Of a DNA stretch of 43,644 bases, positions 1,909 through 39,501 are shown piece by piece. A model generated the notes under the pieces. That model was given only the letters and a program-made list of their open reading frames with translations, was not told the origin of the DNA and ran no database searches. The DNA lies in IMG/VR virus record IMGVR_UViG_3300008107_010511, positions 1 to 43,644 of that record; one strand, given 5' to 3'. The stretch's first letter is position 1; the number at the start of each line of letters is the position of its first letter. This DNA is from a virus. The position numbers were made by a program, and so were the translations under genes.

Positions 1909-3500
1909 TTTTCTATCACTAATATTTCTCTTCCAAAATCAGTACCTAGTAGCTCATATTCAATTTCAAGTAAATTAAATATCTCTAAGTTTTCTTTAGC
2001 TGTCAAAACCACTACTTTTCCTTCATTCAAGATTTTATTAATCAGATGTAACTTAATCTTTGTGTTTGATAAATCGTCAAAATGATCATAAACTACACAA
2101 TCAAAAGTGCATGTTTGACCAGATATTGTTTTTAGACCAATCCAATCATTGTTTTGAATTTTATTTTCAAAATCCAGATTTCCAATACAAAGTAAGTTTT
2201 TAAATTTATTAATTTGTAAATAGTCTTCCAATAAGTTTTTATTTAAGGCTTCATAAGAATCGTCGCATTCTCGTTCAATTAAATATTGGTATTTTTGTTT
2301 AGTTTCCGGAGCATTTAGATGCAAACAAGCATTTTCTATTAGAGGTAACCATAAAAGTTGTTGATTGTATGAAAAGTCAAGAATATGATAGTTTTTTGAC
2401 CGTAATAAGGCCAAATTTATTAAAGCTTGTTCTCTTGGCCACGATCCATTGTTAAAGCAAAGGTAAAACTGACTTTCTGGAAGCATTTTCTTGAGCTCGT
2501 CTTCAAGAATCATAAATGCTTTTTTGTTTCCAGTCATAAATCCACAATTCAAAACATCTTTATGATTTTTTTCTTCTTCGGTAAAATTTAACAGTGTCAA
2601 GCAATGTTCATCACCTTTATAAGCACTCCAATCAGAGCTTACAACTTCTCCCAAAGAGTATTTTTCTTCTTCGCAATCTCTACAAATTCCAATTTTGTCT
2701 TCAATAAAAGAATTATTCAAATCCTTTTCAACTATAATGTCTACATCTGAAATAATAAAATATTCAGCATCAATATATTTTGAAATTGTATATGTAGAAT
2801 CTTTTAAATCAACTGGAGATTTTATTTGGTAGTTTTTTGTTTGATTTGATTTGATAACAATAGCATCGAAGATTTTCGCAATTTTTCTTATAATGTATGA
2901 TTCTTCCTCAATAACAATATAATTTACACAGTCTTTTAAATTTGAATTTTTTTGAAACGACTTTAAAAATGCATATAAATACTTGCTCATATTTCCACTT
3001 GCAAATACAACTGATGCATACTTTGATTTTCTTTTTTCAAAGTCTAGTTCTATGTAGGTGTTATTGAACGGTCCTATATGATGATTGATATTCTCTTTGG
3101 ATATATTTGCATCAACCCATATCGAATGTGCAATATAATCGCCAAAGTTGAAACATCTTAGTTCAAGGACATTGGTTCCTGATATATCAACATTTATTGG
3201 TCTTATCTTGTCAAATTTCTTAACTTTTGAACTTATATATTTAAGTTCACCGTCGCAAATAACTTGAAACTCTACTAATGCATTATCAGAAGAAGAATCA
3301 TTAACAGCAATATATGAGTGAAAAGAATTGTATTTTCGATTTAATTCAAATTTGACAATTGAACTAGCATGTGAACTGATACAATGATTATAATTTTGCC
3401 CATTGATTGAAGGAATGATTTGATAACCCATGCTTCCTTTCACACCAAGCTCTCCATAAGATAACATTGTTTCTTTTGGTGTAAGTTGCTCAAGGTACAT
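1905..3500 (-). CDS. NPCBM-like domain + GT-A glycosyltransferase + methyltransferase-like C-terminus
   Basis: A three-part protein of 531 aa. Residues about 5-135 read like an NPCBM (putative carbohydrate-binding) beta-sandwich: INGQNYNHCISSHASS, then a VEFQVICDG strand, then VDISGTNVLELRC and a final SIWVDANI. Residues about 155-400 read like a GT-A glycosyltransferase: an opening strand YASVVFASGN, a DxD-type metal site FIISDVDIIV (Asp252, Asp254), NCGFMTGNKKAF (318-329) and WPREQALINLAL (354-365), similar to the late motifs of GT8-like enzymes. Residues about 433-531 resemble a shortened Rossmann methyltransferase (LLCIGN, FDCVVYDHFDDL, NEGKVVVLT) without a clear SAM-binding GxGxG. It probably transfers a sugar; acceptor and donor are unknown. 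TAATG coupling links it to the preceding gene and ATGA to the RNA ligase. Domain calls rest on motif reading only. Confidence 0.7.
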   Translation of the reverse strand: MYLEQLTPKETMLSYGELGVKGSMGYQIIPSINGQNYNHCISSHASSIVKFELNRKYNSFHSYIAVNDSSSDNALVEFQVICDGELKYISSKVKKFDKIRPINVDISGTNVLELRCFNFGDYIAHSIWVDANISKENINHHIGPFNNTYIELDFEKRKSKYASVVFASGNMSKYLYAFLKSFQKNSNLKDCVNYIVIEEESYIIRKIAKIFDAIVIKSNQTKNYQIKSPVDLKDSTYTISKYIDAEYFIISDVDIIVEKDLNNSFIEDKIGICRDCEEEKYSLGEVVSSDWSAYKGDEHCLTLLNFTEEEKNHKDVLNCGFMTGNKKAFMILEDELKKMLPESQFYLCFNNGSWPREQALINLALLRSKNYHILDFSYNQQLLWLPLIENACLHLNAPETKQKYQYLIERECDDSYEALNKNLLEDYLQINKFKNLLCIGNLDFENKIQNNDWIGLKTISGQTCTFDCVVYDHFDDLSNTKIKLHLINKILNEGKVVVLTAKENLEIFNLLEIEYELLGTDFGREILVIEK

Positions 3501-4153: not shown

Positions 4154-4844
4154 AATACCTTTTATTATACATTTCGTTTAATAGTGTGGATTTTTCTATA
4201 ATCCAAGAGCCAGAAACAATGTATTTGTCTTTTATATTTGAGACAGATCTATAAATTATTTCTGATAAGCTATATGGTCTTTTTGCAAATATTCTTTTTA
4301 TGCTAACTGGGTCAATACAAATAGCTTGAACATTGTAATTAATATTGAATACTTTGTACTTATTGAAATTTAAAAAATTATAATCTTCAACATCTTTCTG
4401 ATAAAAGATGTTTTCAGCCATTTCATAGATTAAAGAAGTTTTATTTAAATCTGCAACGTCAATGTAATCTTCTCTCCAATTTTTAGTAACAATGTCTGGA
4501 ATAAAATTCATTACTTGAGATATATACATTTCATTATTACCTAGAGTGTGGCAAAATATTGATAATGTATTTTTATTATGCAATTTAATAATATTTGATA
4601 TCGACTTAGGAAAAATATAATTAATATTGTTGTCTATCAAAATTATTAAGTCATCTTTTTTTAATATCTTCTGAAATGCTGAAAACTTTTTAAATGAAAG
4701 GTAATGTATTTTTAATTTATGTTTCAGTCCTCTAATTTTGCTTTCATTAAAGATTACAATTTCTGTATTCTTTAAATCTTCAACCATATTTAAGATAAGT
4801 TTGGTTTGTTCAAAACTAGAGAACTGAACACAAATATAATTCAT
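4146..4844 (-). CDS. Unknown protein of the glycosyltransferase cluster, 232 aa
   Basis: The ATG at 4844 is chosen because it overlaps the TAA of the upstream gene (TAATGA-type coupling). A longer reading to 4868 would need a TTG start inside the upstream gene. The protein begins with a strand (MNYICVQFSSFEQTKLIL), has another at DDLIILIDNNINYIFP where an acidic residue follows hydrophobics as in GT-A enzymes, and ends with an aromatic and basic region (SGSWIIEKSTLLNEMYNKRY). It is Lys/Asn/Ile-rich with no signal peptide. Position between a virion gene and two glycosyltransferase-like genes suggests a role in glycan synthesis, but no diagnostic catalytic motif is visible. I do not assign a function. 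Confidence 0.55.
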   Translation of the reverse strand: MNYICVQFSSFEQTKLILNMVEDLKNTEIVIFNESKIRGLKHKLKIHYLSFKKFSAFQKILKKDDLIILIDNNINYIFPKSISNIIKLHNKNTLSIFCHTLGNNEMYISQVMNFIPDIVTKNWREDYIDVADLNKTSLIYEMAENIFYQKDVEDYNFLNFNKYKVFNINYNVQAICIDPVSIKRIFAKRPYSLSEIIYRSVSNIKDKYIVSGSWIIEKSTLLNEMYNKRYCG

Positions 4845-5917
4845 TATTGACCAGTGCCAAGGTTCCAAATATATCTAAAGAATCTTGATCTACCACCAGG
4901 GAGATTAAATTCAGGTACAACAATAGAGCTGATTCTTGGTAATCGTGCAAGAGGAAGCTTTTCAAGAAGTTTTTCAAAATCTTCCTTGTACATTTGAGTT
5001 GATTGTCTCAAATCATCAATAATCTTATTATCTGGATCTTCTAATAACAATCTTCTTTGTCTACCAGTTAAAGAAACAAGCAGCGATCTTAAAAGATAGT
5101 ATGATGCTCCGATAACAATAGCTGGTTCATAATAAAAAGGCGCTGAGGCTACATTAGGATATTTACTTGAACCTGGTTGTGAGTTTACTGCTTGAAGTGC
5201 CATGTTTAAAGCACTGTTCATGTGTTGACTGGTAAACATTTTAATATTGTAAGAAGCCATAACTGTATCGTAGCTTTGAATAGAACATGGAGTGTCGTCA
5301 TCTTTTATGAAGTAGATGTTACCCATATAGTCTGTTTTATATTTTAAACCATCCGGATAACTTGTTGTTCCAGCTCCTGATCCAGCTAATGTTGTGTAAA
5401 GTGATGTGTTCTCAGATAAGAATTTCATTGCATCACTGTCGCCTTCATTAGAGGCACCAGTAATTCTTACTTGAGGTCTTGGAGCATAATTCCAATGGGG
5501 AAAAGCAACAGAAGCTGAAGTCCTATTAGCGTTGAAAATTACTTCTTCATCATAGATAGGAATATTTAAAAGATGTTCAAGTTCGAATCTTAAACTTGAT
5601 TTTGTTAATAACTCATCTCCTGAAATAGGTTGACTGGTAGCATAAGAAACTGTAAATCCTACACCTCCAATTTCTTCTATCTTGTAATAATAAGAAGGTT
5701 TGCCAGTCATGTCTACATATTCATTTTTTGGAAAGGTGACACTATCTATAAGGTTATATTCCCCATCAAATTGTTCACTTCTGTAAATATTGTAAACACT
5801 TATTCCCGTTGGAGTGATACGCTCCCACTCAAGATAAATGCCTGCTGTACCAGCAGATCTATTGTAAAAAACAAGTTCGCTTTGTGTGTAAGATTGGCTA
5901 GTGAAATCCCCTGGCAT
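4844..5917 (-). CDS. Putative virion structural protein with N-terminal fibronectin-III-like domain, 357 aa
   Basis: Residues about 12-105 read like a fibronectin type III domain: GIYLEWERITPTGISVYNIY, then SEQFDGEYNLIDSV, then PSYYYKIEEIGG. FN3 domains are common as surface-exposed decorations in tailed-phage virion proteins. Residues about 110-357 are a separate domain with helices (LRFELEHLLNIP, QHMNSALNMALQAV, EPAIVIGASYYLLRSLLVSL, DDLRQSTQMYKEDFEKLLEKL) and a basic aromatic C-terminus (RSRFFRYIWNLG). I do not recognise this domain; a neck, connector or tail-completion role is possible. The ATG has GGAG upstream at good spacing. It follows a strong hairpin at 5933-5965, so its expression may differ from that of the genes before it. 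It is directly coupled to the glycan cluster downstream. Confidence 0.65.
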   Translation of the reverse strand: MPGDFTSQSYTQSELVFYNRSAGTAGIYLEWERITPTGISVYNIYRSEQFDGEYNLIDSVTFPKNEYVDMTGKPSYYYKIEEIGGVGFTVSYATSQPISGDELLTKSSLRFELEHLLNIPIYDEEVIFNANRTSASVAFPHWNYAPRPQVRITGASNEGDSDAMKFLSENTSLYTTLAGSGAGTTSYPDGLKYKTDYMGNIYFIKDDDTPCSIQSYDTVMASYNIKMFTSQHMNSALNMALQAVNSQPGSSKYPNVASAPFYYEPAIVIGASYYLLRSLLVSLTGRQRRLLLEDPDNKIIDDLRQSTQMYKEDFEKLLEKLPLARLPRISSIVVPEFNLPGGRSRFFRYIWNLGTGQ

Positions 5918-5987: not shown

Positions 5988-6764
5988 CTATACCCTTCTT
6001 ACCGAGCCCTTTTCATCTGAAGATTCACCATCAAATTCAAGGTCAATTTCTTCTGCAATAGCTGGGGTATCATCAAATCCAAAATCATTGTCTGGTCTTG
6101 CATATACTTCAGCATCACTTCCTGCTAAATAACCATCACGAGCAAAGTTTGACATCTTCACACTTGCAGTTGTTGTTTGGGAGGATCCATTATTTGGTGC
6201 TTGTGCAACGTATGCCTTTCCATTACGTGTAGAACCAGAAGTTACAGCATTGGTTTGAGCATTTACAAGCCTTCCTACAAGACCTGGATCTCTTTTAACT
6301 CTTTCAGCAAAATCTTCAACACTTAGTTCATCACCATTTAGCTCTGCTTGAGTTTGCGCTACTTCCAATGCTACTGCGTAAGAAAGAGGATCATTAGCAT
6401 ATCCAGCATTAGTAACTTCAGAATCTCTTTTGTAAGGTCTTTCAGCATCAATTACTTCTGCTTCCAAAGTTCTTCCATCTTCAGACTCTACAGTTTGCAT
6501 TCTAGCGTTAGGGTTGTTTTTTGTAAGTTCTTTCTTTTCCTTAGCGAGTTGCTTTTCTTGCTTTTTGTCCCATTCTTCTTGAGAAATCTGTCTTAAATAG
6601 CCTTGGCGTAATGCATTTCTCAAATCTTTAGATGCCTTGATAACTTTAGGATCTTCCCAAGTTAAGTCAATGACTGCCAGTGGGTCAAATTGAAGACGAA
6701 TATCACTAATCCAGTGATAGTTCATTGTGACATTTTGAACGATGAATGATTCTGGTTCTTCCAT
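5988..6764 (-). CDS. Hypothetical phage protein with acidic C-terminus, 258 aa
   Basis: The ATG at 6764 is chosen: it has a strong GAGGA site 8 bases upstream and lies 2 bases past the stop of the previous gene, whereas the longer reading to 6827 needs a TTG and a long overlap. Residues about 8-60 (NVTMNYHWISDIRLQFDP, then LTWEDPKVIKASKDLRNALR) look like a compact beta/alpha domain. A Lys/Glu/Gln-rich probable coiled coil follows (EEWDKKQEKQLAKEKKEL). The second half is low in order, with Gly/Ser/Thr/Asn-rich segments and an acidic stretch (EEIDLEFDGESSDE) before a basic end (GSVRRV). The stop is TAG, but a TAA follows after two more codons. A virion or assembly role is plausible from the operon only. 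Confidence 0.6.
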   Translation of the reverse strand: MEEPESFIVQNVTMNYHWISDIRLQFDPLAVIDLTWEDPKVIKASKDLRNALRQGYLRQISQEEWDKKQEKQLAKEKKELTKNNPNARMQTVESEDGRTLEAEVIDAERPYKRDSEVTNAGYANDPLSYAVALEVAQTQAELNGDELSVEDFAERVKRDPGLVGRLVNAQTNAVTSGSTRNGKAYVAQAPNNGSSQTTTASVKMSNFARDGYLAGSDAEVYARPDNDFGFDDTPAIAEEIDLEFDGESSDEKGSVRRV

Positions 6765-6766
6765 AA

Positions 6767-7117
6767 TTAATTTTTCCTCGAAGTTGGTAATTGAGTTATA
6801 CCGTCTAGCCCTTCTTTGCCAGTCCAAATTTCGTTAGATTTAGCCTCTCTAGTGTCTGCTGCGTAGGACTGTTTTCTCACTTGTTTCTGATCTTTCATAA
6901 AGTCAGCCATTTGCTTTCGCTTATTTGTAGTGCCAAATTTCTTTTCATTAGCTGTTAAACCAGTTTGAACAGAAAATGATGAGAAAATTCTTGTCGCATT
7001 AGCTTCAGATTTGCCACAAGGACAAGGTATTTGAGGCTGGTAATCTTGAATTGATAGATTGACGGTAAAGATACGCTCTTCACCTTCACACAAACATCTG
7101 TACTCATATCTTGGCAT
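6767..7117 (-). CDS. FmdB-like zinc-ribbon protein, 116 aa
   Basis: The N-terminus MPRYEYRCLCEGEER followed by strands and PCPCGKSEANATRIFSS matches the pattern of FmdB-type (CxxC/CxxC SSSS) putative regulatory zinc ribbons: a YEY(R/K)C start, two cysteine pairs (CLC near 8-10 and CPC near 33-35) and a following Arg-Ile/Val-Phe-Ser-Ser. Here both pairs are CxC rather than CxxC, which is unusual and may alter metal binding. Residues about 50-116 are a basic helical tail (KKFGTTNKRKQMADFMKDQK) not typical of FmdB. It is the first gene of the leftward operon, about 45 bases from a TATAAATA motif, with AAGGA upstream of the ATG. Role unknown; transcription-related or virion-associated are both possible. 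Confidence 0.65.
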   Translation of the reverse strand: MPRYEYRCLCEGEERIFTVNLSIQDYQPQIPCPCGKSEANATRIFSSFSVQTGLTANEKKFGTTNKRKQMADFMKDQKQVRKQSYAADTREAKSNEIWTGKEGLDGITQLPTSRKN

Positions 7118-7186: not shown

Positions 7187-7366
7187 ATGTCCGAAACTGA
7201 ACTTAAAGATGCTACCAAGACCCACAATATGTACTGTGTTAAGTGCAGAACTATGGTCACTATTACTGGTCCAAAAGTTGTGACTATGAAGAGTAACAGA
7301 AATGCATTGCAAGGTAAGTGTCCTCACTGCTCCACTTCAACTTACAAAATTTTTGCAAAAAACTAA
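7187..7366 (+). CDS. DUF5679-like zinc-ribbon protein, 59 aa
   Basis: A short gene: ATG at 7187, TAA at 7364, with GGGAG 11 bases upstream. The product (starting MSETELKDATKTHNMYCVKC) has two CxxC pairs, YCVKC near residues 16-20 and KCPHC near 45-49, and between them the VTMKSNRNALQG segment typical of DUF5679 proteins, which share a YCVKC...M.N.R.A..G.C..C layout. Such proteins are widespread in large phages and giant viruses and are of unknown role; a single zinc-binding fold is expected. It is the first gene of the rightward late operon and mirrors the zinc ribbon that opens the leftward operon. Confidence 0.8.
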   Translation: MSETELKDATKTHNMYCVKCRTMVTITGPKVVTMKSNRNALQGKCPHCSTSTYKIFAKN

Positions 7367-7369
7367 ATC

Positions 7370-8356
7370 ATGAAATACAAATATGTGAAAATAGCCGCCG
7401 AAGATTCAATTACAGCTCCAATTATTGGTGCTGTATCTGAGGGCTCTTCAGAAGCCGCAGCGTTATCAAAAATCAAAGGCATTATTAGTGGTGACACTGG
7501 TAAAAATATGTTTGAGGATGCTGTTTCACATTTTAAAGAAAAGGCAAAACAAGAACAGTTTCAAGGGGCTGAAGATGCAGAAATCATGGGCAATGAGATT
7601 GAAGATCTCAAGAATGCCTATATGTCTTCAGGATTTAGCTCCAAAGAATTCGACTCATATTTTCCAGAATATTTCAAATTAGAAAACGCTGGTGGATTAC
7701 AAAAAAATCCTAAAGTCTCTAATATTAGCATTGATAAAATTATCAGCATCATGAGGCAAGCTAAAGATGATGCTGCTGCTTCATCTCTTCCTCTTAAAAA
7801 AGTATTTGAAGCTACTTTGATGTTGTATTCAAAAACAAGGAATTTAGCTTTAGCCAAAGATGTTTTAAAAAGAGCAGTCAAACTTGAAAGTGAAGTACCA
7901 GGAGTTGGTATTTTAGATTCCTTATTCAGTGCGATGAGAGGAAATGTTTCTGAAACAAGTTTAATGATGGCACTGCTTGGCACTCCAGAGTTGATGAGAG
8001 AATATACAGAGATCATTGCCCAAGCTACTGGTCATAAACTTGCTCCTGTTGAATTAATTAAAAGAGATGCAGAAATTGCTAAAAACATTCTTGACAATGA
8101 AATCATTACTCATGGTTTAGCAAGAGGTGTTCAGAATGCTATTGAGTCTATTGCAATTAGACAACAAGCAGCTGCTGCTGAAAAAACTCTTACTACACTA
8201 TTTAGGAATACCACATCATTAACTGGTTTTTTTAGAAACATTTACTACTATCTTTGGATGGGTGATAATGTCGCAACAGAAGCTTCAGCTGACTTAATTC
8301 CAGCTAATAGAGGCTTGAAAAATACTTTGTTTACAAAAAGCTCTAGTAACAAATAG
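7370..8356 (+). CDS. Helix-rich virion-type protein, N-terminal part, ends at in-frame TAG
   Basis: This 328-residue reading is the first part of what looks like one longer gene: the TAG at 8354 is followed in the same frame by protein-like sequence that runs on to 9733. The visible part is largely helical: a Gly/Ala/Ser-rich N-terminus, helices around MFEDAVSHFKEKAKQEQF, SIDKIISIMRQAKDDAAASS and LMREYTEIIAQATGHKLAPV, and a hydrophobic aromatic stretch TGFFRNIYYYLWMG near residues 285-299. The family is not recognised. Position ahead of a giant protein and tail genes, Ala-rich helices and low cysteine content suggest an internal virion protein or a tail-tape-measure-like protein. It starts 3 bases after the zinc-ribbon gene without a clear Shine-Dalgarno, so it probably depends on that gene's translation. 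Confidence 0.65.
   Translation: MKYKYVKIAAEDSITAPIIGAVSEGSSEAAALSKIKGIISGDTGKNMFEDAVSHFKEKAKQEQFQGAEDAEIMGNEIEDLKNAYMSSGFSSKEFDSYFPEYFKLENAGGLQKNPKVSNISIDKIISIMRQAKDDAAASSLPLKKVFEATLMLYSKTRNLALAKDVLKRAVKLESEVPGVGILDSLFSAMRGNVSETSLMMALLGTPELMREYTEIIAQATGHKLAPVELIKRDAEIAKNILDNEIITHGLARGVQNAIESIAIRQQAAAAEKTLTTLFRNTTSLTGFFRNIYYYLWMGDNVATEASADLIPANRGLKNTLFTKSSSNK
8354..8356 (+). other. In-frame amber codon inside a coding region
   Basis: The TAG interrupts ...KSSSNK and RVVTAAPSVPLTSTQ, and the next ATG in the same frame (8402) lacks a ribosome-binding site. The 15 codons between TAG and that ATG read like ordinary protein, so the stop appears to fall within one gene. A Gln codon (CAG) differs by one C-to-T change. 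Suppression, reassignment, a real nonsense mutation or sequence error are all possible. Confidence 0.6.
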
Positions 8357-8401
8357 AGAGTTGTTACTGCTGCTCCATCTGTACCATTAACATCTACTCA
8401 A

Positions 8402-9736
8402 ATGGAAACAGAGTTAAAAAGACAATTTGATGCTTCTATGACTAATACTCAAAGAGTATTTAATAAAAACTATCAAGCAGATGCTGCTAGACTTATTGAC
8501 ACAATTGTCCGTTTAAATAATGCAAGAACTGGAAATAATATTCCAGCATTTAATTCTTTAAGACCAGCTGCCAATTCTATATTAAATCAAAAGGGATTTA
8601 AAAATACTTACAACTCAGCTTTTATAGAATTAGCAGAGTCTTATTTATCATTACTGGATGTTAATCAACCCGTCACTAATGATGCAGTTCAACAAGCAGA
8701 AAATTTAAGTGCACCAGAAACTATTCAAGAATTAGCTCCTAACAAAGAACAAGGTGAAAAGTTCAATATTGCTAGGAAAAGATATGACGAGGCTAAGCAA
8801 ACATACAACAATATAAAAAGCTCGATTTATGGCGAACCTGGCTCAAGCATGATAGCTGGTAATGCAAAAGAGCTTGGACAAACAAAGTTAGTTCCTTACA
8901 AATCTCCTGAGCAAGTCAAAGCTAAAATTTCTTCAGCACAAGAATCTATAAAGTCAGCCAAGGCTTATAACAAGATTGTTCAATCAGTTTTAACTGCATG
9001 GATTAGTACACCAGCAGCAAGTTTTTCTGGAAGATCACCAGAGCAAGTTGAAGCGATCAAAACTAGACTCAAGTTCAATATTCATCAGCTACAAATTGAT
9101 GTTGAAAAGTTACAAGCTGATTCTTTTGAATTAAAATCTGAAGCCATAACTGTTGAACAAACTATGAAGCAAAGAAATGAACGCTTCATGGGTGGTGGTC
9201 AATTAGCTGCAGAATTAGCAGGATTGGCAGCATCTTCCAAGGGCACTGCATATGGTTTGGGTGCAGGAATTGGCGAGTTGAATAGGTTAATGGATAGCCA
9301 AATATCAACACAAGAAGATAAAATACAAAAACTTCAACAGGCTCTTTCAACAGCTTCGTCTCCTGAAGAAAGAATGGCTTTAGAAGGTCAACTCAAAAAT
9401 TCAGAAATAGAAAAAGAGCTTTTAAAGAATAAATTATTTCAACAAACAAATGATGCATTACAAGGAAAATTTGATCCATCATTTTATACAGATGCCATGA
9501 GTAGTCCAGGAATTTCACGTTCATCAAATAGCAATAGTAAATATGTTTTAGCATCCAAGTTTATTAAAGAATCAGATGCTGTAATTGAAGATTATTATAA
9601 TAACCTTTTTGAAGAATCAGAAGGCTCTCCAGAATATGGAACAGCTTTAGAACATCCAAAAGAAACAAGAAATACTCTTACTAAAGATATCCCAAAACAC
9701 AAACACAATAAGTCTAGTAAATATAAGCTGAACTAG
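8402..9736 (+). CDS. Helix-rich virion-type protein, C-terminal part (same frame as the preceding part)
   Basis: The coordinates give the ATG-to-TAG reading of 444 residues, but the reading frame is continuous with the gene at 7370, and coding-like sequence begins right after the TAG at 8354. The product is mostly alpha-helical with long probable coiled coils (residues about 215-260 HQLQIDVEKLQADSFELKSE; about 300-350 ISTQEDKIQKLQQALSTA, EERMALEGQLKNSEIEKELL). Between them lies a Gly/Ala-rich segment GGGQLAAELAGLAASSKGTA near 264-283 that could insert in or span a membrane. It ends basic (PKHKHNKSSKYKLN) at TAG 9734; reading on gives 9 more codons to TAA 9764, overlapping the next ATG. Coiled coils plus a hydrophobic core fit a tape-measure or ejected internal virion protein, but no diagnostic domain is visible. 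Confidence 0.6.
   Translation: METELKRQFDASMTNTQRVFNKNYQADAARLIDTIVRLNNARTGNNIPAFNSLRPAANSILNQKGFKNTYNSAFIELAESYLSLLDVNQPVTNDAVQQAENLSAPETIQELAPNKEQGEKFNIARKRYDEAKQTYNNIKSSIYGEPGSSMIAGNAKELGQTKLVPYKSPEQVKAKISSAQESIKSAKAYNKIVQSVLTAWISTPAASFSGRSPEQVEAIKTRLKFNIHQLQIDVEKLQADSFELKSEAITVEQTMKQRNERFMGGGQLAAELAGLAASSKGTAYGLGAGIGELNRLMDSQISTQEDKIQKLQQALSTASSPEERMALEGQLKNSEIEKELLKNKLFQQTNDALQGKFDPSFYTDAMSSPGISRSSNSNSKYVLASKFIKESDAVIEDYYNNLFEESEGSPEYGTALEHPKETRNTLTKDIPKHKHNKSSKYKLN
9734..9736 (+). other. Second in-frame amber codon; TAA nine codons later overlaps the next gene start
   Basis: If this TAG is read through, nine more codons (YKRYNKTHG) lead to TAA 9764-9766, which overlaps the ATG of the next gene at 9759 by 8 bases (ATGGATAA). 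The 4153/4146 junction on the other strand has the same arrangement (GTGGATAA). This makes TAA 9764 an attractive natural end, although TAG with a 22-base gap to the next ATG is also acceptable. Confidence 0.45.
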
Positions 9737-9758: not shown

Positions 9759-9875
9759 ATGGATAATAAAGATCCCTGGGTTAGTTATGACAAAGTCTCA
9801 ACGAGTTCTGATGCCTTTGCCTAAGCTAAAGGTCTCCCTACTGAAAAGTACACCGCTGGTAACACTAATGATGTT
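9759..9875 (+). other. Probable true N-terminus of the giant Asn-rich protein, interrupted by TAA
   Basis: An ATG at 9759 is in frame with the long reading that has its first later ATG at 9876. The 39 codons between them read like protein (MDNKDPWVSYDKVSTSSDAF, then AKGLPTEKYTAGNTNDV), with one interruption, TAA at 9822-9824 (codon 22). The ATG at 9876 has no convincing ribosome-binding site, while the sequence before it looks coding. A CAA-to-TAA change would explain the break. Confidence 0.5.
9822..9824 (+). other. In-frame ochre codon near the start of the giant Asn-rich gene
   Basis: TAA falls between ...SSDAFA and AKGLPTEKY in the frame of the 2.1-kilo-residue protein. Both flanks look coding. 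Unlike the two TAGs upstream, reassignment of TAG alone cannot explain it, because TAA is the usual terminator of genes in this window. Confidence 0.5.
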
Positions 9876-12800
9876 ATGGAAGGTGTACATGAAGAGTCAT
9901 TTCTAACCCAAACCCCTTCTAAAATTTCAAGACGATACTCACCTATGAATAAATCTGAGTATAGTGGTTATCGTCCGCCTGACCCTGTCTTTTTATCATA
10001 TAGCAATACCGAGACTACAAATACATTTTTGCCTGAACCTCTAGCAAAACATAAAACTATTGAAGATATAGATAAGGTTCAAGTAAATAATAAGTTCGTC
10101 GTAAATAAGCTATCTTCAACAACAAGAGAAGCCGCTATTGCTCCTGAAGCACTTGAGCTTATTAATATTTTAAACCCAGTTGAAGCTAGAGAAATTCAAA
10201 ATAATATAGTCAATCAAGAGATTAGGGCAGAAAAATACACAAGCTCAATTACACCAATAGAAGTAAAAAAACTTGAAACAAAAACTAATACAATAGTTCA
10301 AAATTCAAGCCCTATTGTTATTGGTAAGCCTAAGATATTAACAACATATAATCAAGTTAATAATAACACTCAAGCAAATACAGAGTTAACCGACATCACT
10401 AAAAATGAAGTGACGGAAGTTGAAACTACTGGTCCTACGTTTACCAATAATGTAAAACAAATTACCAACCAAAATCCAGTTAATATCACAAATATTGAAG
10501 TTAAAAAACCTGTCGTCACACCCAAAATTTCACAGTACATAAACACCATCGATTTTAACTCTTTTGTAAGTAGTTCTTTTGCAGAAATAGTTGACCAAAA
10601 GACTGAACAAAAATTATTATCAAGAAATAATATTAATGTAAAAAAACTAGTTACGGACATTAATGTATTTTTAGAACAGAATAAAAGAGAGTTCAAAAAT
10701 AATATTTCATCATCCGTAAATCAATTCTTCTCAACATATTCAGAAGAAAATATATCAAGCTTGCAAAATTCTATATTGAATGTGATTGATACATCCAATA
10801 ACATTCAAAATTTGGATGTATCGGTTTCTAAAGTTATCAGTGAGTATTTTTCAAAAAATGAAAATGAATTTACTGAAAATTTAGTAACTAATTTTATTAA
10901 TAACTTTAATTTAAATCTACAAAACCAACTCACAAATTTGCAACAAGATTCATCTTCTCAGCTAAATACTATTGAAAATATTAACTTATTAATATCTGAT
11001 ATTAAGAATATTTATGACACCAAACAATCTGAAATCGAAAAAATAATTTCAGAAGTGAACAATGATAATGTTTTAACTAAAGTTGTGGAGTTAGCAAACA
11101 CATATCAAGATTACAAAACCCTATCAACTTCTTCAATAAATGCTCTTTCAAGTCAAGTAAATCAAACAAACATTTCTGAAATCAAAGAAACATTCAACAA
11201 ACAAATTAATAGTATGAATGTCAGAAATGAATCATCTTTGTCAACTTTCAAGCAAGAGTTATATGGCTTCTTGTATTCTTACTTATCAAGTAGTGTAGAT
11301 CAAGAAACATTTAACAACTTGTTAAGTTCAGTCACAACAAGTATCAACGTTGAGCAAGTTAATTCAATAATAAATGATTTTGTTTCTAATAACCGCACTG
11401 AAAATAATTCTCAAGTCATAGATAGCTTGCAATACTTTTCTAATGATAAATATTCAAATATAGTTTCTTCTACCATTGTTGAAACTATCAAAAGTGAAAT
11501 TTTGAATTCTTTATCATCAGTAGTACAAAGTTATTCAAATCAAGATGTAATCCAAAATTCTTTAGTCAAGCAAGTCAAAAATGAACTGGCACAAACTTTA
11601 AATACAGAAATAAATAATACTGTAAATAGTTTTGGCTTTACTGAACTTAAAACATCAATCGAAAATGTTTATAGATCTCAAGATATTAATGAATTTAAAT
11701 CTGAGTTTAGTGATGTTTTGAATAAATCTGAAAACTCTAGCAATACTCAGCTAATATCTTATTTGAATGATTTACTAGAAAATAATATCTCACAATACAA
11801 TTCTAAAAGTGTCAATGTCTTGAATGAAACAAGATATGCTAATTCCGTTAAGAATTTAGTTAATCAAAACTTACATAATGTCTTAACTAATATTGTTCAT
11901 AACCTTTCAGAAGTCAATACATATTCAGACAATAAAAACATATCTACATTGATTTCTAATATAAAAATAATCAATGACAGATTTTTAACTAATAACGCTG
12001 ATAATAGATTGCAGAACTTTAATCTAATCCAAACTAGTATCGAAAACTTTTTAAATAATACTGAAAATAGTTTTGCGTCTTCTTTGAGTAGTGTAAAAAC
12101 AAATCAAAATTCTTATAGCTCTGAAATTGTAGAAAACTTAAGCACCTTTGATCTTCTTTCTTCAAGCACTAGTCTTGAAACTTTGACAGAGATTAAAAAT
12201 TTAATCAATAACTTTAACTCACAAAGCTTTAATGAAGAATCAAATAAATTTATTCAAGAAGCAAAGATATACACTGATTTGGTCAACATGAAAAATCAAA
12301 TCACTTCTGAGCTAAATAATTTTGTAAACACTACATTTGAAACAATTTTAGAAGTAAATCAAAGCTCCACCGTAGTTTCATCTCAACAAATATTAAACTT
12401 AATTGAAGAAGCTGTGTCTACCTTTAATAGTTCAAGTGTATCTAACAAGGCATTATCTTATATTCAAAACACCATACAAGATGCCAAAAAGCCCGAACTT
12501 TATAACAATACATTTCAACTTATTACATCTACAAATATCTTAGAAGATCAAGTAAAAAACTATCTTCTCAAAAACAACTCTGTGCTTGCTGATTATTCTT
12601 TGCAACAAATTTTGAACTTAATTAATCAACCAGTTTATTCTGATTATGTAACATTTCAAGATATAAAAGAAATTATAAACAACACTACAAGCACATCTAG
12701 CTTTGGCATTTTGAGTGAAATTAAGCAATACATCAGCCAAGTAAACTCTCAGGAAAATGCTCAGTTCATCAGTGATTTAAAAACATACTTGACTGAAAAC

Positions 12801-15800
12801 AAGAGTAATCAAAACTTTGTAAATAATACTAATTTTACTGAAGAGTTAAAAAGTTTTATCTCTAACCAAAATAGCTATTCTCCAGAAACTTTTAACCAAA
12901 TCATTAATTCAATTTCTAATAAGTTTGAAAACAAATCTGCCCTTATTTTAAATCAATTAATAAATGAAAATGTAACAAAGCTTAACCAAGCTGTAGAAAC
13001 ATTATACTCCAGTATTTCAAGCAATGAATCTAAAGAAAGTATATTGAATACTCTCTCAACATTTATAAATAATAACTCCAGTTTTTCAGATTTAGAAAAC
13101 AATTTATTGACTGAACAAACTAATAGTTTTAAGCTTGAAAACAATGATTTTATTGAAAATTTAAACAATATTTTATCAAGCAATAACAACACTCTTTCTG
13201 AAGAAATAAAAAATGATATCAAGAATCAAATATTTAATAATATTTCATCTCAGGTTTTAGCCATTATTAATAAAAATGATATTAATAGTCAGCAAATCAG
13301 TAATATAATTCAAAGCTCTAATTCAGTTGAAATTAAAACAAGCGATATAAAAAACTATTTGACTGAGCTTGAAAATGTATATCAAGATAGTGTTTTTGTA
13401 AGTGAAATCAAACATGCTCAATCTTTCTTGAAAAATGAAAGTACGAAGATTGATGTTTTGAACACTCCATATAATCTGAACAATACAAATTTGGATTCAA
13501 TAATTCAAAATTCTTTAAAAAATAATATTGAGAATTTGATAATAAATAAATCTTTTGTTGATTCAATTAATAATTTTAGAACTCAAATTTCAAATGTAAA
13601 TTCAGCAGATGAAATCAATAAGTATTCAAATAATCAAAAAACCATAATTTTGAATGATGCTAAAAATATTTTAAATGATTTCATATCCGTGGTCAAGCCA
13701 GAATACTTAACTGTTGAGAATTTAAGTACGATAAACTCTGCCACATCAATAGAACAATTATCAAACACACTATCTGAAAATAAAAATAGATTTAATTTTT
13801 CAGAAAACACAACCATTTCTAATATCCTAAATCAAAGTACATTTTATTCAGAAATTATTGAATCTGTTACTAAAAATATTTTGAATGACAACAACTTTAC
13901 TGAAAACATATTAATGCAAAAAGTTGACAATGCTTTATATGAATCAATACAAAAACAAATAAATAATGTTAATGATACTTTAATCAAAAATATCATTACA
14001 AATATTGAACAACTAAATATTTCTGAGTTTGCTACAAATCAAGAAATAAATAGCATAATTTCATCATCCATTAATAATACTTTGACTAAACAAGAAGTGT
14101 ATCTAAATGATGTATTAAATTCATTCAATATAAATAATATCAATCAGCAAATAAACACATATAATCAAGAGGTCATTAAATCCATGACTTCTGCAGTCCA
14201 AAATTATGATGTCTCTAAATTGCTTACAAATACCATTAATGAAAACATCAGTCTTAATCAAAATATTGTAAATAATGATGTTATTGAAAATGTTAATCAA
14301 ATTCTAGAAAAAAATAACTACAGTATTTCTGACTTGATATCCGTACAGAGAAATTTGATGGCTATTGAAGGAAAAAATATTAATGCTGAAAATAATTTAG
14401 AAATAAATCAAAACATTATTAACAAAGAAGTTATAGAAAAAATAAACAATATTGTCAAAGAAAGTTTTTTCAATGTTTTAAGATTGAATACAAATCAAAA
14501 CTTTTCAACAATTGAAAGTCAGAATATTGTAAATAATGATGTTGTTGAAAATGTAAATCAAATTCTAGAAAAAAATAACTACAATATTACAGACTTAATG
14601 TCAGTGCAGAAAAATTTGCTTGCCGTAATAGAGCAAAATGTTAATGTAGAAAATGACCAAGATGTACAAAATATCATCAACAATGAAGTTATAGAAAAAA
14701 TAAATAATATTGTAAAGGAAAGTAATTTTTATGTTTCGACTTTAAATACAAATCAAAACTTTTCAACAAATCAAAGTCAAAGCATCTTTAATGATGATGT
14801 CGTAGAAAATGTCAACCAAGTAATAGAAAAAAATAACTATGATATTTCAGACTTAGTATCCATACAGAGAAGCTTGACTGCTATTCAAGAAAATACTATC
14901 AATTCAGAAGAAGCCAAAACAATAATCAAAAATATCTTTAATAGTGAAAATATAGAAAAAATAAATAATTTTATTAAAGATAACAATTTAAATATTGCAA
15001 ACTTGAATATTGACCAAAGATTATCAAATATCGAAAATAAGAATGTAATAAATAATCAAATAGTAGAAAATTTAAATAAATATATCAAAGAAAACAGCTT
15101 TGACATTTCAAGTTTAAATACCTATCAGGCTTATTCATCAAGCGAAAACACGAACATCTTAAATAATGAGATAGTAGAAAATTTAAAGCAAGTTTTAGAT
15201 GGCACAAATGTCAATACCGAAAACTATGAAGAAGTTATAAAAAACTTCTTATCAAGTCAGACAGTTACTCAGCAAATCCAAAACATCATAAACTCAAATA
15301 TTGTAAGAAAATTATTTAGTGAATCTGTTGCGTATGAACTTGAAAAAGGCTCATCTACAGTCAGAGATTTATTAGAAGAGAAAACAACAAATAATCAAGT
15401 TAATTTATTTTCGCAGTTTATAAGTAAAAATCAGCAATCATTAAACGAAATTAAAGCCTCTGTAAATAATGAAGTTAAAAACGAAGTAGAAAGAATTGAA
15501 AACATAACTTTAAACTTTGAAAATCAATCCACATATCAAAAATCAAGCATTCAAGTATATGACGAAGTAACGAACAAGATTGAAGCAAGTTTGCCCGATG
15601 GATTTAATAAAGTAAGTACAAACGAAGCTGTAAATATTTCTGAAACTAATAATACAAATAATGATTTCAGAAATATTACCGTAGTAAAACAAATTGATGA
15701 AAATGAAGATGTACAGATTTCAAATTTAAGAATAGAAAAGGTTTGGAATAAGTTTGTCCAAGAGGAAGTAAATAAAATTGTTGAACAAGTAAATAATCAT

Positions 15801-16220
15801 ACGGAATCAACAAACCAAGAAAATATTTATAATCAAGAAAATACAACCGTAAATCAAAACTCAAAAACAGAAAACTTTAATAAATCAGAATTTAATTACA
15901 ACTCTGGTGATGTTTATAATACTGAGAATAAGAGTGTTTATAATACATACAATACTCCACAACCAGGCCTGAATACAACAACCAAAGAAACTGAAGAAAG
16001 AGTTGATTATAGAGAAATAACTGAACTTGTATTTACTAGAATAGAAGAAAAGCTTAAAACATTCAGTGTTACAGAAGAAGACATTATTATTTTAAAACAC
16101 AAGATTTTAAGTGAAGTAACAGAAATATACGAAAAGAAATCCAGAGTCGATATTCAAAAGAGCGAAGAAAAGATGAAAAAGGAGATGCAGGATTTATTTA
16201 TTAAATTCCTAAACTCATAA
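9876..16220 (+). CDS. Giant Asn/Ser/Gln/Ile-rich helical repeat protein, 2114 aa from this ATG
   Basis: One of the longest readings in the window, and probably longer still (start at 9759, see that entry). It has no cysteine-rich, catalytic or membrane segment that I can find. Composition is extreme: Asn, Ser, Gln, Ile, Leu, Thr, Glu and Lys dominate, in amphipathic patterns such as EVVENVNQILEKNN-like helices, so an elongated helical or coiled-coil rod is likely. Residues about 1463-1780 hold about eight degenerate units of 36-50 aa with the core IxNxxVxExxNxxxxxN. The C-terminal 80 residues differ: charged helices YREITELVFTRIEEKLKTF and SEEKMKKEMQDLFIKFLNS resembling a trimerisation or docking end. 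Tape measure, long fibre shaft or internal scaffold are all possible; length and position ahead of the baseplate genes suit a tape measure, but the hydrophobic segments usual there are absent. The TAA stop is one base before the next ATG. Confidence 0.7.
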   Translation: MEGVHEESFLTQTPSKISRRYSPMNKSEYSGYRPPDPVFLSYSNTETTNTFLPEPLAKHKTIEDIDKVQVNNKFVVNKLSSTTREAAIAPEALELINILNPVEAREIQNNIVNQEIRAEKYTSSITPIEVKKLETKTNTIVQNSSPIVIGKPKILTTYNQVNNNTQANTELTDITKNEVTEVETTGPTFTNNVKQITNQNPVNITNIEVKKPVVTPKISQYINTIDFNSFVSSSFAEIVDQKTEQKLLSRNNINVKKLVTDINVFLEQNKREFKNNISSSVNQFFSTYSEENISSLQNSILNVIDTSNNIQNLDVSVSKVISEYFSKNENEFTENLVTNFINNFNLNLQNQLTNLQQDSSSQLNTIENINLLISDIKNIYDTKQSEIEKIISEVNNDNVLTKVVELANTYQDYKTLSTSSINALSSQVNQTNISEIKETFNKQINSMNVRNESSLSTFKQELYGFLYSYLSSSVDQETFNNLLSSVTTSINVEQVNSIINDFVSNNRTENNSQVIDSLQYFSNDKYSNIVSSTIVETIKSEILNSLSSVVQSYSNQDVIQNSLVKQVKNELAQTLNTEINNTVNSFGFTELKTSIENVYRSQDINEFKSEFSDVLNKSENSSNTQLISYLNDLLENNISQYNSKSVNVLNETRYANSVKNLVNQNLHNVLTNIVHNLSEVNTYSDNKNISTLISNIKIINDRFLTNNADNRLQNFNLIQTSIENFLNNTENSFASSLSSVKTNQNSYSSEIVENLSTFDLLSSSTSLETLTEIKNLINNFNSQSFNEESNKFIQEAKIYTDLVNMKNQITSELNNFVNTTFETILEVNQSSTVVSSQQILNLIEEAVSTFNSSSVSNKALSYIQNTIQDAKKPELYNNTFQLITSTNILEDQVKNYLLKNNSVLADYSLQQILNLINQPVYSDYVTFQDIKEIINNTTSTSSFGILSEIKQYISQVNSQENAQFISDLKTYLTENKSNQNFVNNTNFTEELKSFISNQNSYSPETFNQIINSISNKFENKSALILNQLINENVTKLNQAVETLYSSISSNESKESILNTLSTFINNNSSFSDLENNLLTEQTNSFKLENNDFIENLNNILSSNNNTLSEEIKNDIKNQIFNNISSQVLAIINKNDINSQQISNIIQSSNSVEIKTSDIKNYLTELENVYQDSVFVSEIKHAQSFLKNESTKIDVLNTPYNLNNTNLDSIIQNSLKNNIENLIINKSFVDSINNFRTQISNVNSADEINKYSNNQKTIILNDAKNILNDFISVVKPEYLTVENLSTINSATSIEQLSNTLSENKNRFNFSENTTISNILNQSTFYSEIIESVTKNILNDNNFTENILMQKVDNALYESIQKQINNVNDTLIKNIITNIEQLNISEFATNQEINSIISSSINNTLTKQEVYLNDVLNSFNINNINQQINTYNQEVIKSMTSAVQNYDVSKLLTNTINENISLNQNIVNNDVIENVNQILEKNNYSISDLISVQRNLMAIEGKNINAENNLEINQNIINKEVIEKINNIVKESFFNVLRLNTNQNFSTIESQNIVNNDVVENVNQILEKNNYNITDLMSVQKNLLAVIEQNVNVENDQDVQNIINNEVIEKINNIVKESNFYVSTLNTNQNFSTNQSQSIFNDDVVENVNQVIEKNNYDISDLVSIQRSLTAIQENTINSEEAKTIIKNIFNSENIEKINNFIKDNNLNIANLNIDQRLSNIENKNVINNQIVENLNKYIKENSFDISSLNTYQAYSSSENTNILNNEIVENLKQVLDGTNVNTENYEEVIKNFLSSQTVTQQIQNIINSNIVRKLFSESVAYELEKGSSTVRDLLEEKTTNNQVNLFSQFISKNQQSLNEIKASVNNEVKNEVERIENITLNFENQSTYQKSSIQVYDEVTNKIEASLPDGFNKVSTNEAVNISETNNTNNDFRNITVVKQIDENEDVQISNLRIEKVWNKFVQEEVNKIVEQVNNHTESTNQENIYNQENTTVNQNSKTENFNKSEFNYNSGDVYNTENKSVYNTYNTPQPGLNTTTKETEERVDYREITELVFTRIEEKLKTFSVTEEDIIILKHKILSEVTEIYEKKSRVDIQKSEEKMKKEMQDLFIKFLNS
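14262..15210 (+). repeat. Degenerate tandem protein-coding repeat (about 36-50 aa units)
   Basis: About eight units share IxNxxVxExxNxxxxxN. They alternate in two types, so the strongest match is between every second unit: NIVNNDVIENVNQILEKNNY begins at 14262, its close copy at 14523 and a third at 14781, giving periods of 261 and 258 bases (87 and 86 codons). Intervening units read IINKEVIEKINNIVKES and IINNEVIEKINNIVKES. Later units decay. This shows expansion of a two-unit helical module by in-frame duplication. Confidence 0.8.
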
Positions 16221-35209: not shown

Positions 35210-38200
35210 ATGGAAGAAAACTTGTTTAATGCCTTGACAGTTACTTTTAGCTCAAGTTCATTTATTGCAACTGATGGGTATACAATTCATGCAATATTGA
35301 GTGGAGTTTCGTCTCTTCCTTTGCTTCCTTCTACCGGTATAAATGGATTTTATGTTTTTGTAAATGGCATTCAAATAACTGTCAGAACTGCTTATGTTGA
35401 AAATCCATCTGGTTCTTCAACTCAAAAAGCTACAGTTGTTTTAAAAACCTATGTAAGAATAAAGTCCACTGATACAGTTCAGATAAAACATGTTTATGAC
35501 AATCTCACTGATAACTCTACTGATGAGATTCCTGATTTATCTTTATTCACTATCACTGTTAATAATAGTGCAAACAATAAGTACTTTGATCCTTTAGAAT
35601 GGAATAATGGACTTGATAGTGGAGAGGTTGTTATAGGCTCAGAAACAGGTTTTTTTAGCGATTCTACTGACTTGTTTAAGAAAGAGCTTACATATCCATT
35701 TGCTGAAGTTATTTTAGACACAAAGCCACCTGAAGGGTTGGTTATAATTAATGAATCTTCAACTACTGGCGGTATAGACGTAAGAACTTTTGCTGCATAC
35801 GCCCCTTTTGATGCATCTACTTCTGGATACACTAATAGAAGTTTAACCCTTTTGACTTCTACTGTTGAAGGCTGGCAATTTGTATCAAGCACAGAACAGA
35901 CAATAAGTTCATTCGTTTTACAACTTAAATATACTCAACTTTCTTCTCCAACACCAGCAATAGGAAATCAATCAGGAAGAGTTACAGTTTCTTTATATTC
36001 AAACACAACTGGCGACGTTCCAAATACTCAAATTGTTGAATTAGGCGTTATTCAGTACGATACTTTAACAAATGCATATCAAGACTTTAACTTGACACCA
36101 CTGACTCCTGTTGCATTGGCTTCTCAAACTACTTATTGGATTGTTTTATCTTTCGAGTCAATTATTAAATCAGGAGTAACATCTTCTGGGACCATTGATA
36201 TTTTGGTTAAAAATGATGATAGTTTAAATTATGCAGTTTATGAAGCAAACGCATGGAGAAGATTGGCGCAAAAACAAATTGGATATTTAAAGCTTGTCGG
36301 GACTAAAGCTGATGGTGATGCTATTCCTGTAGATATTATGGCGCAGGATATTATTGGAAAAAATCTTTACCAAGCAACTAATTTTGGCGGTAGTACAAAC
36401 ACATCCCAATATGAAAAAATTGGAGCTGGAGATGCTTATTTCTTAAATATGTATTTTACTCCTGATACTGCTACTGGTCTTTACCCATTAGTTCAGGCTG
36501 TTGATATAGGTGCCACTGCTTCTACATCGAAAAGCTTCATTGTAGAAACAAAACTAACTCCAAAATCAAACTGGGAAACTTTATATTATAACTCTGCAAG
36601 TTCTACAACAACAGATTTTCTTAGATATAAATTTAATACTCCAACAAGATTTTCAAATATTAGAATAGGATATCGTGGAGATTTATTTGCAAACATTGAA
36701 GCTGGAACATTAACTATTGCAGGTAGTGACGAATGGTCAGATGTTGTTTCAGTTCAAGCTTCGCACTTTTCCGATTTTAGAGATGCAGATGAGTTCGTTA
36801 ATGTGGACACTAGAGGCTGGGCTCCTTTTACTGAAGGTGCATCTGTTTATGATTGGAATGTAACAAACCAAGCTAGATTATGGGAAAAACTTGATAATTC
36901 TGCAGAAATTGGTTTCTTGCGTTCATCTCCAATTTCAAATCAAATGGTTTTGTCTTCTTATCAAAAGATTTCAGTTGCACAAGGCGGAGCAATAAGATCT
37001 GCATTAAACTTAGATTTGACTGTTTCAGGAGACACAATTAATGCCTTAGCAGTTCATAACTCAATAGTTTACATTGGAACAGAGTATGGTTATATTTATC
37101 AATCTGCACAAGGTGACTATTGGACAATTATCAACCAAAAAAATCCCCTTGATAACACAGAATATAAAACTCTACCTCCAGTTACTGCTTTAGCATCTCA
37201 TGGTGGAGCTTTGTATATTGGTACTAAAAAAACTTCAACTAAGAATGCAAGTGTCTATAAATATTTTGATAAAAAGTTTACTCCAATAAAAACTAATTTT
37301 ACTGAAAACAAAATTTCTGCTTTAGCGAGCAATAAAGGAATACTATTTGTTGGTACTGCTGGCAAATCTGGCACACTACAAGGAATAGTTTGGACATACA
37401 ACGGTACTGATTTTAAGAAAACTTTAATTTCAGAATTTGATCAAGTTCAGTCAATGATTTATTCAACAACTTTAAATACTATTGTTGTCGGCTTAAACGG
37501 TGGTCAAATTTGGAAGCTAGTCTATGATTCAAACAACAATCCAGCCTCTTGGTCTAAAATTGAAGATACTGGCGCTAATAATATTTACAATTTAAATGAT
37601 GATAGCTCTGGAAAGTTCTTGTTTGTTTGCACCGATTCTGCTTTAAAATGCTATGTAAAATCTTCGGATGTATTTAAAACATTAGCGTACCCTAATTATA
37701 GCAACCCAGGTTTACAAGTAACATGGAAGCAGTTTGCTGCTGCAGGATCTACTGATTACAAAAATGATAGAGACTTTACTTTTGTAACTGCAGTAAATCA
37801 AAACTCATCAATAAATGAATTTAATTTAGTGTCATCAAAACCTGTAGGAATCGGAACTTCTTACTACACTGCAGTTTTTGAAGGGGCAATAAAATCTCCA
37901 TCAACAGCTAGTTATCAATTTATGGTTAGTACAAATACTAATACAAGATTGACAGTAAATGGAAATCTATTAACCCCATCATCGTTATGGACAACTGAAA
38001 GTGATGTCTCTACAAACACATTGACTGACAATTTTGCTACTCAAACAGTAAATTTAGTTGAAGATCAGTATTATTCAATAAAACTTGAAATGGCTATAAA
38101 GGAAGTGGGTGCTTACACTCCAAAGGTTTCCTTATCCTGGAAAGACACTGCATCAGTTTTTAATAATTTCTCTGCAGTGGCTTCGACAGATTTTTATAAG

Positions 38201-39460
38201 CCTAATGTAATAACATCGATAAACAATCTTGTCAACTCTTATTTAGGCAGCGGATTAGACGGAAGTGCTTATAATTTTGACCCAAGTTTTTATGAAACCA
38301 CTAAAAGATATGCATATGTAAGGCTTAAAGATGAAGCTGGTAACTATCATAACTACAGATTACCAGATGGAACTATTCCGTATGAATCATTAAACGATTT
38401 CATCTACCAAGGCGATCCAGAAGCTGGTGGCGGAGGAGATATTGTTCCGCCTCCTCCTGGTGTAGGAGTTATTAAATTTACTCCTACCAGTGTTTTAGCT
38501 GGTGGTACTGCAGTAGCCACATTATTCATACCAAATAGTGTCAATACTACATCTGTTTACACAATCACAACTGATGGCAATTCAACATCAGCAGTTACAA
38601 GCGTTACCGTACCTGCAAACAGCTTATCCGCTACATTCAATGTCACAGTTAATTCAGATGTAGCATCTACGGTTACAGGCACAGTTGTCACGGCAACATT
38701 AGGCTCGGCTTCATATTCAGGCACGTTAAATGTCACACCTAGTGGTGTAATACCTCCTCCGGGGACATCACTCAAGGGAATTATTTATCAAGTCAAGGCA
38801 GAAATGAATCCTGCAGTTGCGCCTATCACCTACGTGCCTAGCGTAACTGATGCAATATATTCACCTAAAAGAAAAGTTAGATCAACTGGTAGCTATGTAA
38901 ATCAACCATTCTATGTTCCAACTTTGTCTCAATGGACCGAAATGACTGTATTGATGTTAAACGAATATCATGCAAATACTGCAGCAGGTTTAGATGCTGG
39001 AACAGAAGTTAATGTTTATATTAGAACATCAGATACATCAGAAGGATGTTTTACTACCCCTTGGAGTGTTGCGTATTCTAAATCTTATATAAACAATAGT
39101 GCTGCGCCAGTTACAGCAGAAACATTGAGTATTGATCTACAAGCATACAGCGGTAAGTTTATTCAGTACTACATTGAACTTGTATCTGCAACTCAAGGAG
39201 ATAGCCCAGAAGTTCAAGCAGTTACTATAACTTACAAGGCTGCTACAGGCTCTTATTTCTTTACAAAGACATTTAATACTGAAGATTACAGTACAACAAT
39301 TCCTACACCTACATTTAGAAGAGGTTTACTCACTTCTAATCAAGACAAAAAGGATGGCGAGATTGTTTATGGGTATACAACAGATGATAGAGATGGATAT
39401 AAATATGACTTTGGTCGTTATACCATCATAGAGCCAAATAAAACTTTGCTGTTCAACTAG
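35210..39460 (+). CDS. Giant fibre/adhesin with propeller, PA14-like and Ig-like modules, 1416 aa; end possibly frameshifted
   Basis: In order: a beta domain at the N-terminus; a jelly-roll-like segment at about 205-320 (TPAIGNQSGRVTVSLYSNTT, TTYWIVLSFESI); a propeller region at about 610-780 (NALAVHNSIVYIGTEYGYIY, ALASHGGALYIGTKK, SALASNKGILFVGTAGK, NTIVVGLNGGQIW); a PA14-like domain at about 880-990 (YYTAVFEGAIKSPSTASYQF, TRLTVNGNLLTPSS, YYSIKLEMAIKE, PKVSLSWKD) of a kind that often binds carbohydrate; an acidic Gly/Pro linker near 1073-1086; an Ig-like domain at about 1087-1180; a second short Pro linker; and a C-terminal beta domain. The reading ends at TAG 39458, but one base back an in-frame tail continues to TAA 39499 next to the following start. 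Receptor binding is the likely job. Confidence 0.66.
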   Translation: MEENLFNALTVTFSSSSFIATDGYTIHAILSGVSSLPLLPSTGINGFYVFVNGIQITVRTAYVENPSGSSTQKATVVLKTYVRIKSTDTVQIKHVYDNLTDNSTDEIPDLSLFTITVNNSANNKYFDPLEWNNGLDSGEVVIGSETGFFSDSTDLFKKELTYPFAEVILDTKPPEGLVIINESSTTGGIDVRTFAAYAPFDASTSGYTNRSLTLLTSTVEGWQFVSSTEQTISSFVLQLKYTQLSSPTPAIGNQSGRVTVSLYSNTTGDVPNTQIVELGVIQYDTLTNAYQDFNLTPLTPVALASQTTYWIVLSFESIIKSGVTSSGTIDILVKNDDSLNYAVYEANAWRRLAQKQIGYLKLVGTKADGDAIPVDIMAQDIIGKNLYQATNFGGSTNTSQYEKIGAGDAYFLNMYFTPDTATGLYPLVQAVDIGATASTSKSFIVETKLTPKSNWETLYYNSASSTTTDFLRYKFNTPTRFSNIRIGYRGDLFANIEAGTLTIAGSDEWSDVVSVQASHFSDFRDADEFVNVDTRGWAPFTEGASVYDWNVTNQARLWEKLDNSAEIGFLRSSPISNQMVLSSYQKISVAQGGAIRSALNLDLTVSGDTINALAVHNSIVYIGTEYGYIYQSAQGDYWTIINQKNPLDNTEYKTLPPVTALASHGGALYIGTKKTSTKNASVYKYFDKKFTPIKTNFTENKISALASNKGILFVGTAGKSGTLQGIVWTYNGTDFKKTLISEFDQVQSMIYSTTLNTIVVGLNGGQIWKLVYDSNNNPASWSKIEDTGANNIYNLNDDSSGKFLFVCTDSALKCYVKSSDVFKTLAYPNYSNPGLQVTWKQFAAAGSTDYKNDRDFTFVTAVNQNSSINEFNLVSSKPVGIGTSYYTAVFEGAIKSPSTASYQFMVSTNTNTRLTVNGNLLTPSSLWTTESDVSTNTLTDNFATQTVNLVEDQYYSIKLEMAIKEVGAYTPKVSLSWKDTASVFNNFSAVASTDFYKPNVITSINNLVNSYLGSGLDGSAYNFDPSFYETTKRYAYVRLKDEAGNYHNYRLPDGTIPYESLNDFIYQGDPEAGGGGDIVPPPPGVGVIKFTPTSVLAGGTAVATLFIPNSVNTTSVYTITTDGNSTSAVTSVTVPANSLSATFNVTVNSDVASTVTGTVVTATLGSASYSGTLNVTPSGVIPPPGTSLKGIIYQVKAEMNPAVAPITYVPSVTDAIYSPKRKVRSTGSYVNQPFYVPTLSQWTEMTVLMLNEYHANTAAGLDAGTEVNVYIRTSDTSEGCFTTPWSVAYSKSYINNSAAPVTAETLSIDLQAYSGKFIQYYIELVSATQGDSPEVQAVTITYKAATGSYFFTKTFNTEDYSTTIPTPTFRRGLLTSNQDKKDGEIVYGYTTDDRDGYKYDFGRYTIIEPNKTLLFN

Positions 39461-39501
39461 ATGCCGGTGATGAAGATATGAAGTTTATGCCTGAATTGTA
39501 A
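39442..39501 (+). other. Out-of-frame continuation of the fibre gene (NFAVQLDAGDEDMKFMPEL)
   Basis: Shifted back by one base at the AAAA run 39440-39443, codons AAC TTT GCT GTT CAA CTA GAT GCC continue to TAA 39499-39501, giving NFAVQLDAGDEDMKFMPEL. The stop then lies one base before the next gene's ATG at 39503, the same spacing as at 16220/16222. In the current frame the gene instead stops at TAG with a 42-base leftover. A missing A in the homopolymer would join the two and give a natural ending (IEPNKNFAVQLDAG). Confidence 0.55.

Follow-up and report, generated by a model that had tools for sequence, protein, structure and literature searches.

A lone in-frame amber codon in a virion-type gene of a metagenomic phage contig most probably represents a contig-specific nonsense lesion

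The stretch of DNA analysed here (the window) is a virus record of 43,644 bases with a GC content of 32%, which represents a fragment of a larger phage genome. A long virion-type gene in the window is interrupted by a TAG codon, and the main features of this locus, together with two further large genes and a control gene, are listed in Table 1. It was confirmed that the frame is open from position 7370 to the TAG and again from 8357 to a second TAG at 9734-9736, so that the description in an earlier note of this DNA, i.e., an otherwise open frame split at 8354, could be reproduced, as could the 15 normal codons (RVVTAAPSVPLTSTQ) that separate the TAG from the next ATG. The open run beyond the TAG comprises 459 codons, and at this base composition such a run after a stop is not credible as a chance event. 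On the minus strand, genes for an RNA ligase (PHROG 562) and an NPCBM-domain protein (553-3500) adjoin the virion cluster.

Table 1. Coordinates of the interrupted gene, the neighbouring markers and the other broken genes in the window.
Feature	Position	Strand	Evidence
Control gene with a functional TAG terminator	5988..6827	-	TAG follows a conserved EKGSxRRV/L tail, as it does in the homologues of L009, L011 and L012
DUF5679 gene (small zinc ribbon) immediately 5' of the interrupted gene; marks the syntenic locus in all relatives	7187..7366	+	Pfam PF18930, E=2.6e-12
Interrupted virion-type gene, portion before the stop (328 aa, helical)	7370..8353	+	ORF; tblastn to a single 786-aa ORF in G002/G003
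Premature TAG, in frame, within a linker modelled at low confidence (residues ~306-341)	8354..8356	+	Relatives (weak alignment): V, V, L, S, S
Interrupted gene, portion after the stop (459 aa); its end at TAG 9734-9736 coincides with the relatives' C-terminus	8357..9736	+	
First ATG after TAG 8354	8402..8404	+	Start context does not surpass that of internal ATGs
Actual beginning of the giant gene downstream (MDNKDPWVSYDKVSTSSDAFA)	9759..9821	+	Homologous to L009 from residue 1
Second in-frame stop, TAA, apparent deletion scar	9822..9824	+	L009 has 22 additional residues at the junction
Rest of the giant Asn-rich helical gene, open to its end	9825..16220	+	
Virion-type gene truncated by a frameshift	35210..39460	+	85 bp missing between two ACTTT repeats at ~39443
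Orphaned C-terminal tail of gene 35210-39460 (FAVQLDAGDEDMKFMPEL, then a stop)	39445..39501	+	100% identical to G001, out of frame in the window

Direct searches of viral contigs with either half of the interrupted gene yielded no match, nor did a search of annotated phage records with the 3' half; scans of genome contigs revealed no relative, and no homologue with more than 35% identity was detected in any of the searches. By scanning with an upstream gene (4844-5917), five contigs corresponding to three distinct lineages were identified: G002 and G003 (44 and 57 kb, almost the same phage), G004 and G005 (316 and 110 kb), and G006 (379 kb; 378,848 bases). The DUF5679 gene, whose identity to that of the window is 86% in L009 and 54-76% in L011-L013, marks the locus, and the ORF that follows it is unbroken in all five relatives (786 aa in both G002 and G003, 1119 in G004, 1124 in G005 and 688 in G006). 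The 786-aa protein aligns with residues 41-787 of the joined window protein at 27% identity (E = 7e-67), and the total lengths are alike (786 versus 788 aa). G004 is matched only weakly by the 5' half (E = 0.0017) and not at all by the 3' half, and its assignment as a homologue is based on synteny and similarity to G005.

As homology confirms that both sides of the TAG belong to one coding sequence, the proposal of a single gene with an amber codon is borne out, and these comparisons indicate that 7370-9736 is one gene, broken only in the window. The presence of two unrelated adjacent genes that happen to share one frame, which is how gene callers using translation table 11 would output the region, is next to impossible and is refuted by the alignment of the two halves, in unchanged order and frame, with a single continuous ORF of the relatives. 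In none of the five relatives is the gene split at this point; their ORFs run through. At the 3' end, the C-termini of the G002/G003 proteins fall within 1-2 residues of TAG 9734, which is thus the real terminator; the right end of 9766 given previously assumes readthrough of this codon as well.

The possibility of a tolerated gene fission, in which two chains are produced and the second is re-initiated at ATG 8402, was also considered. Its attraction lies in the short distance between the TAG and this ATG and in the AlphaFold model of the joined protein, which places the TAG in a long coil of low confidence between the helical parts (residues ~306-341), so that it would lie in an inter-domain linker; however, the mean pLDDT of this model is only 48.6, and there is no split gene among the relatives. 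Based on a position-weight model of start contexts built from four related contigs, ATG 8402 is on a par with the average ATG inside a gene: its score is reached or exceeded by 50% of internal in-frame ATGs, and a score this low is seen for only 4% of the starts presumed in the relatives. A Shine-Dalgarno (SD)-like 4-mer precedes 28% of starts in the lineage versus 2.4% of internal ATGs. The missing ribosome-binding site, which the earlier note had pointed out, is weak evidence by itself since SD-like sequences precede only 28% of starts and the homology-supported start at 9759 scores equally poorly. Taken with the unsplit relatives, the start context makes fission quite unlikely. At 8345-8368, two perfect arms of 8 bp (AGTAACAA/TTGTTACT) form an inverted repeat whose loop contains the TAG (DNA fold z = -3.1). 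It was rejected as a recoding signal, as repeats of this kind abound in this AT-rich window, with 39 present versus 20-32 in simulated sequences.

The joined frame 7370-9736 of this giant tailed phage encodes a long helical protein of approximately 788 aa, which is probably associated with the virion. Pfam and PHROGs searches of the interrupted gene assigned no function, and a fold search with the AlphaFold model was abandoned on account of the uncertainty of the model. A short motif of the type K-F/Y-V-x-I/V-A is repeated in the protein, occurring at the N-terminus (window 7370-7393), next to the TAG and close to the C-terminus (~9536-9556). Motifs of this type are also found at residues 2, 337 and 726 of the L009 homologue, a different protein of G004 and G005 carries one at its N-terminus, and they could perhaps represent a maturation or packaging signal.

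The earlier note favored the reassignment of TAG to Gln (genetic code 15), which appeared to suit the local context (SSNK-Q-RVV). The locus does resemble those of known code-15 phages (crAss-like phages, phAss-1 and Lak megaphages) in that an in-frame TAG lies in a late or virion-type gene of a large phage, the class of genes in which recoding is concentrated (PMC9523058), and in that the full-length gene is kept in relatives. On the other hand, several differences were found. The plus-strand cluster of the window contains 467 Gln codons (399 CAA and 68 CAG) and a single TAG among 12,024 codons, whereas TAG occurs within 41 of the 147 ORFs of phAss-1 (PMC10607447). None of the five relatives has Gln opposite the TAG, where Val, Leu or Ser are found instead, in a linker that is poorly conserved and only weakly aligned. 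Moreover, TAG, which code-15 phages avoid as a stop codon, serves as a normal terminator in this lineage, as in the control gene of the window; 2-28 genes per relative end in TAG, with 26-28 each in G004 and G006 (26 of 336 ORFs in the latter).

A search for gene-internal TAG codons in approximately 560 kb of homology-covered DNA of the relatives, in which each was searched with the proteins of the others, revealed no credible case, showing that lineage-wide reassignment of TAG is absent from these homology-covered relatives. Four TAG-split candidates were rejected: those at 112467 and 227982 in G006 mark the limits between genes that relatives encode separately, and those at 206734 and 274091 in G004 are read as separate genes. 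Thus, with no Gln at the site, a lone TAG, TAG terminators and additional lesions that TAG reassignment cannot explain (see below), a TAG-to-Gln reassignment in this phage is not supported.

Amber suppression or code 15, in which a CUA-anticodon tRNA of the phage or its host inserts Gln or another residue late in infection to yield the 788-aa protein, would be in line with the full-length protein normally possessed by the relatives and with the late type of the gene, as well as with the two CUA-anticodon tRNAs found beside a tmRNA gene in G006, both of which were confirmed as tRNAs by Rfam. Suppressor tRNAs with this anticodon are frequent in code-15 phages, though not found in all of them; no tRNA or other Rfam RNA could be detected in the 43.6-kb window and no CUA-anticodon tRNA in G001-G005. 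Together with the codon counts, the aligned residues, the TAG terminators and the separate-gene or unsupported nature of the candidates in G006 and G004, the lesions left unexplained make amber suppression, including code 15, unlikely here. In G006, the region 294065-295477 (L057 14065-15477) contains the tmRNA followed by the two CUA-anticodon tRNAs and two Lys tRNAs, and this genome displays suppressor-type tRNAs without visible reassignment, no supported in-frame TAG having been observed. The phage of the window could encode a CUA-anticodon tRNA outside the fragment. It is conceivable, though very unlikely, that the lineage, like G006, carries such tRNAs but has no wholesale reassignment, and that a single leaky amber codon yields both a short and a full-length virion protein.

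Two further large genes of the contig also appear to be damaged. The giant gene downstream, listed from 9876, begins at 9759 by homology, its true start being masked by the in-frame TAA at 9822. Judging from the additional residues in L009, this TAA is a probable deletion junction, with natural length variation possible at an overall identity of 26%. A clear additional lesion is the deletion at ~39443 in the gene at 35210-39460, where 85 bp are missing relative to G001, a further contig of the clade, and the 5-bp ACTTT repeats flank the gap. G001, G002, G004, G005 and G006 all possess the missing 28 residues (ELDTPSSTIKFAILLTSIDGDPSIVYD in G001) in frame. Since it lies out of the ancestral frame after the deletion, TAG 39458 is not the original terminator of this gene. 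The folding of the 85-bp segment in G001 is not unusual (z = 0.76), and a hairpin-driven origin of the deletion is accordingly unsupported. In G001 itself, a frameshift, apparently due to a small deletion, was observed in the homologue of the 9759 gene (L002 ~2255-2322), indicating that gene-breaking defects are not unique to the window. From sequence comparison, at least one and likely two neighboring genes of the contig are broken in addition to the gene at 7370-9736.

Considering all of these observations, TAG 8354 is very probably a contig-specific nonsense lesion in one conserved gene that is read with the ordinary code, arising either from damage to the sequence or from a mutation of recent date. 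The main alternative to recoding put forward previously, a nonsense mutation or sequencing error, is therefore the better reading. The locus shares with known nonsense mutations, pseudogenes and metagenomic contig errors a premature stop confined to one contig in a gene conserved elsewhere, as well as damage to other genes, here through a deletion at a short repeat and what is probably the scar of another, and the window contains no feature that contradicts this comparison. On this reading, a single premature amber codon breaks the gene for the ~788-aa protein where a variable linker joins the helical N-terminal part to the helical C-terminal part, and it belongs to a cluster of lesions in which TAA 9822 and the frameshifting 85-bp deletion strike the two other large genes. 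The origin may be a damaged assembled sequence, such as an artefact of amplification or assembly or a copy of the genome that is defective; in a second form of the same reading, it would be a genuine recent nonsense mutation. Because two or three large genes are broken in an otherwise intact conserved cluster, a damaged molecule or assembly artefact is somewhat favored over a fixed mutation, and we infer that TAG 8354 arose as a lesion like the others, as an artefact rather than a real mutation.

These results suggest caution in the interpretation of metagenomic phage contigs, in which a lone in-frame TAG is not evidence for code 15. Recoding can be separated from damage by a check of homologues combined with a search of the contig for further lesions that break reading frames. 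Readthrough of an amber codon at one site, if true here, would differ as a type of recoding from the wholesale reassignment known to date.
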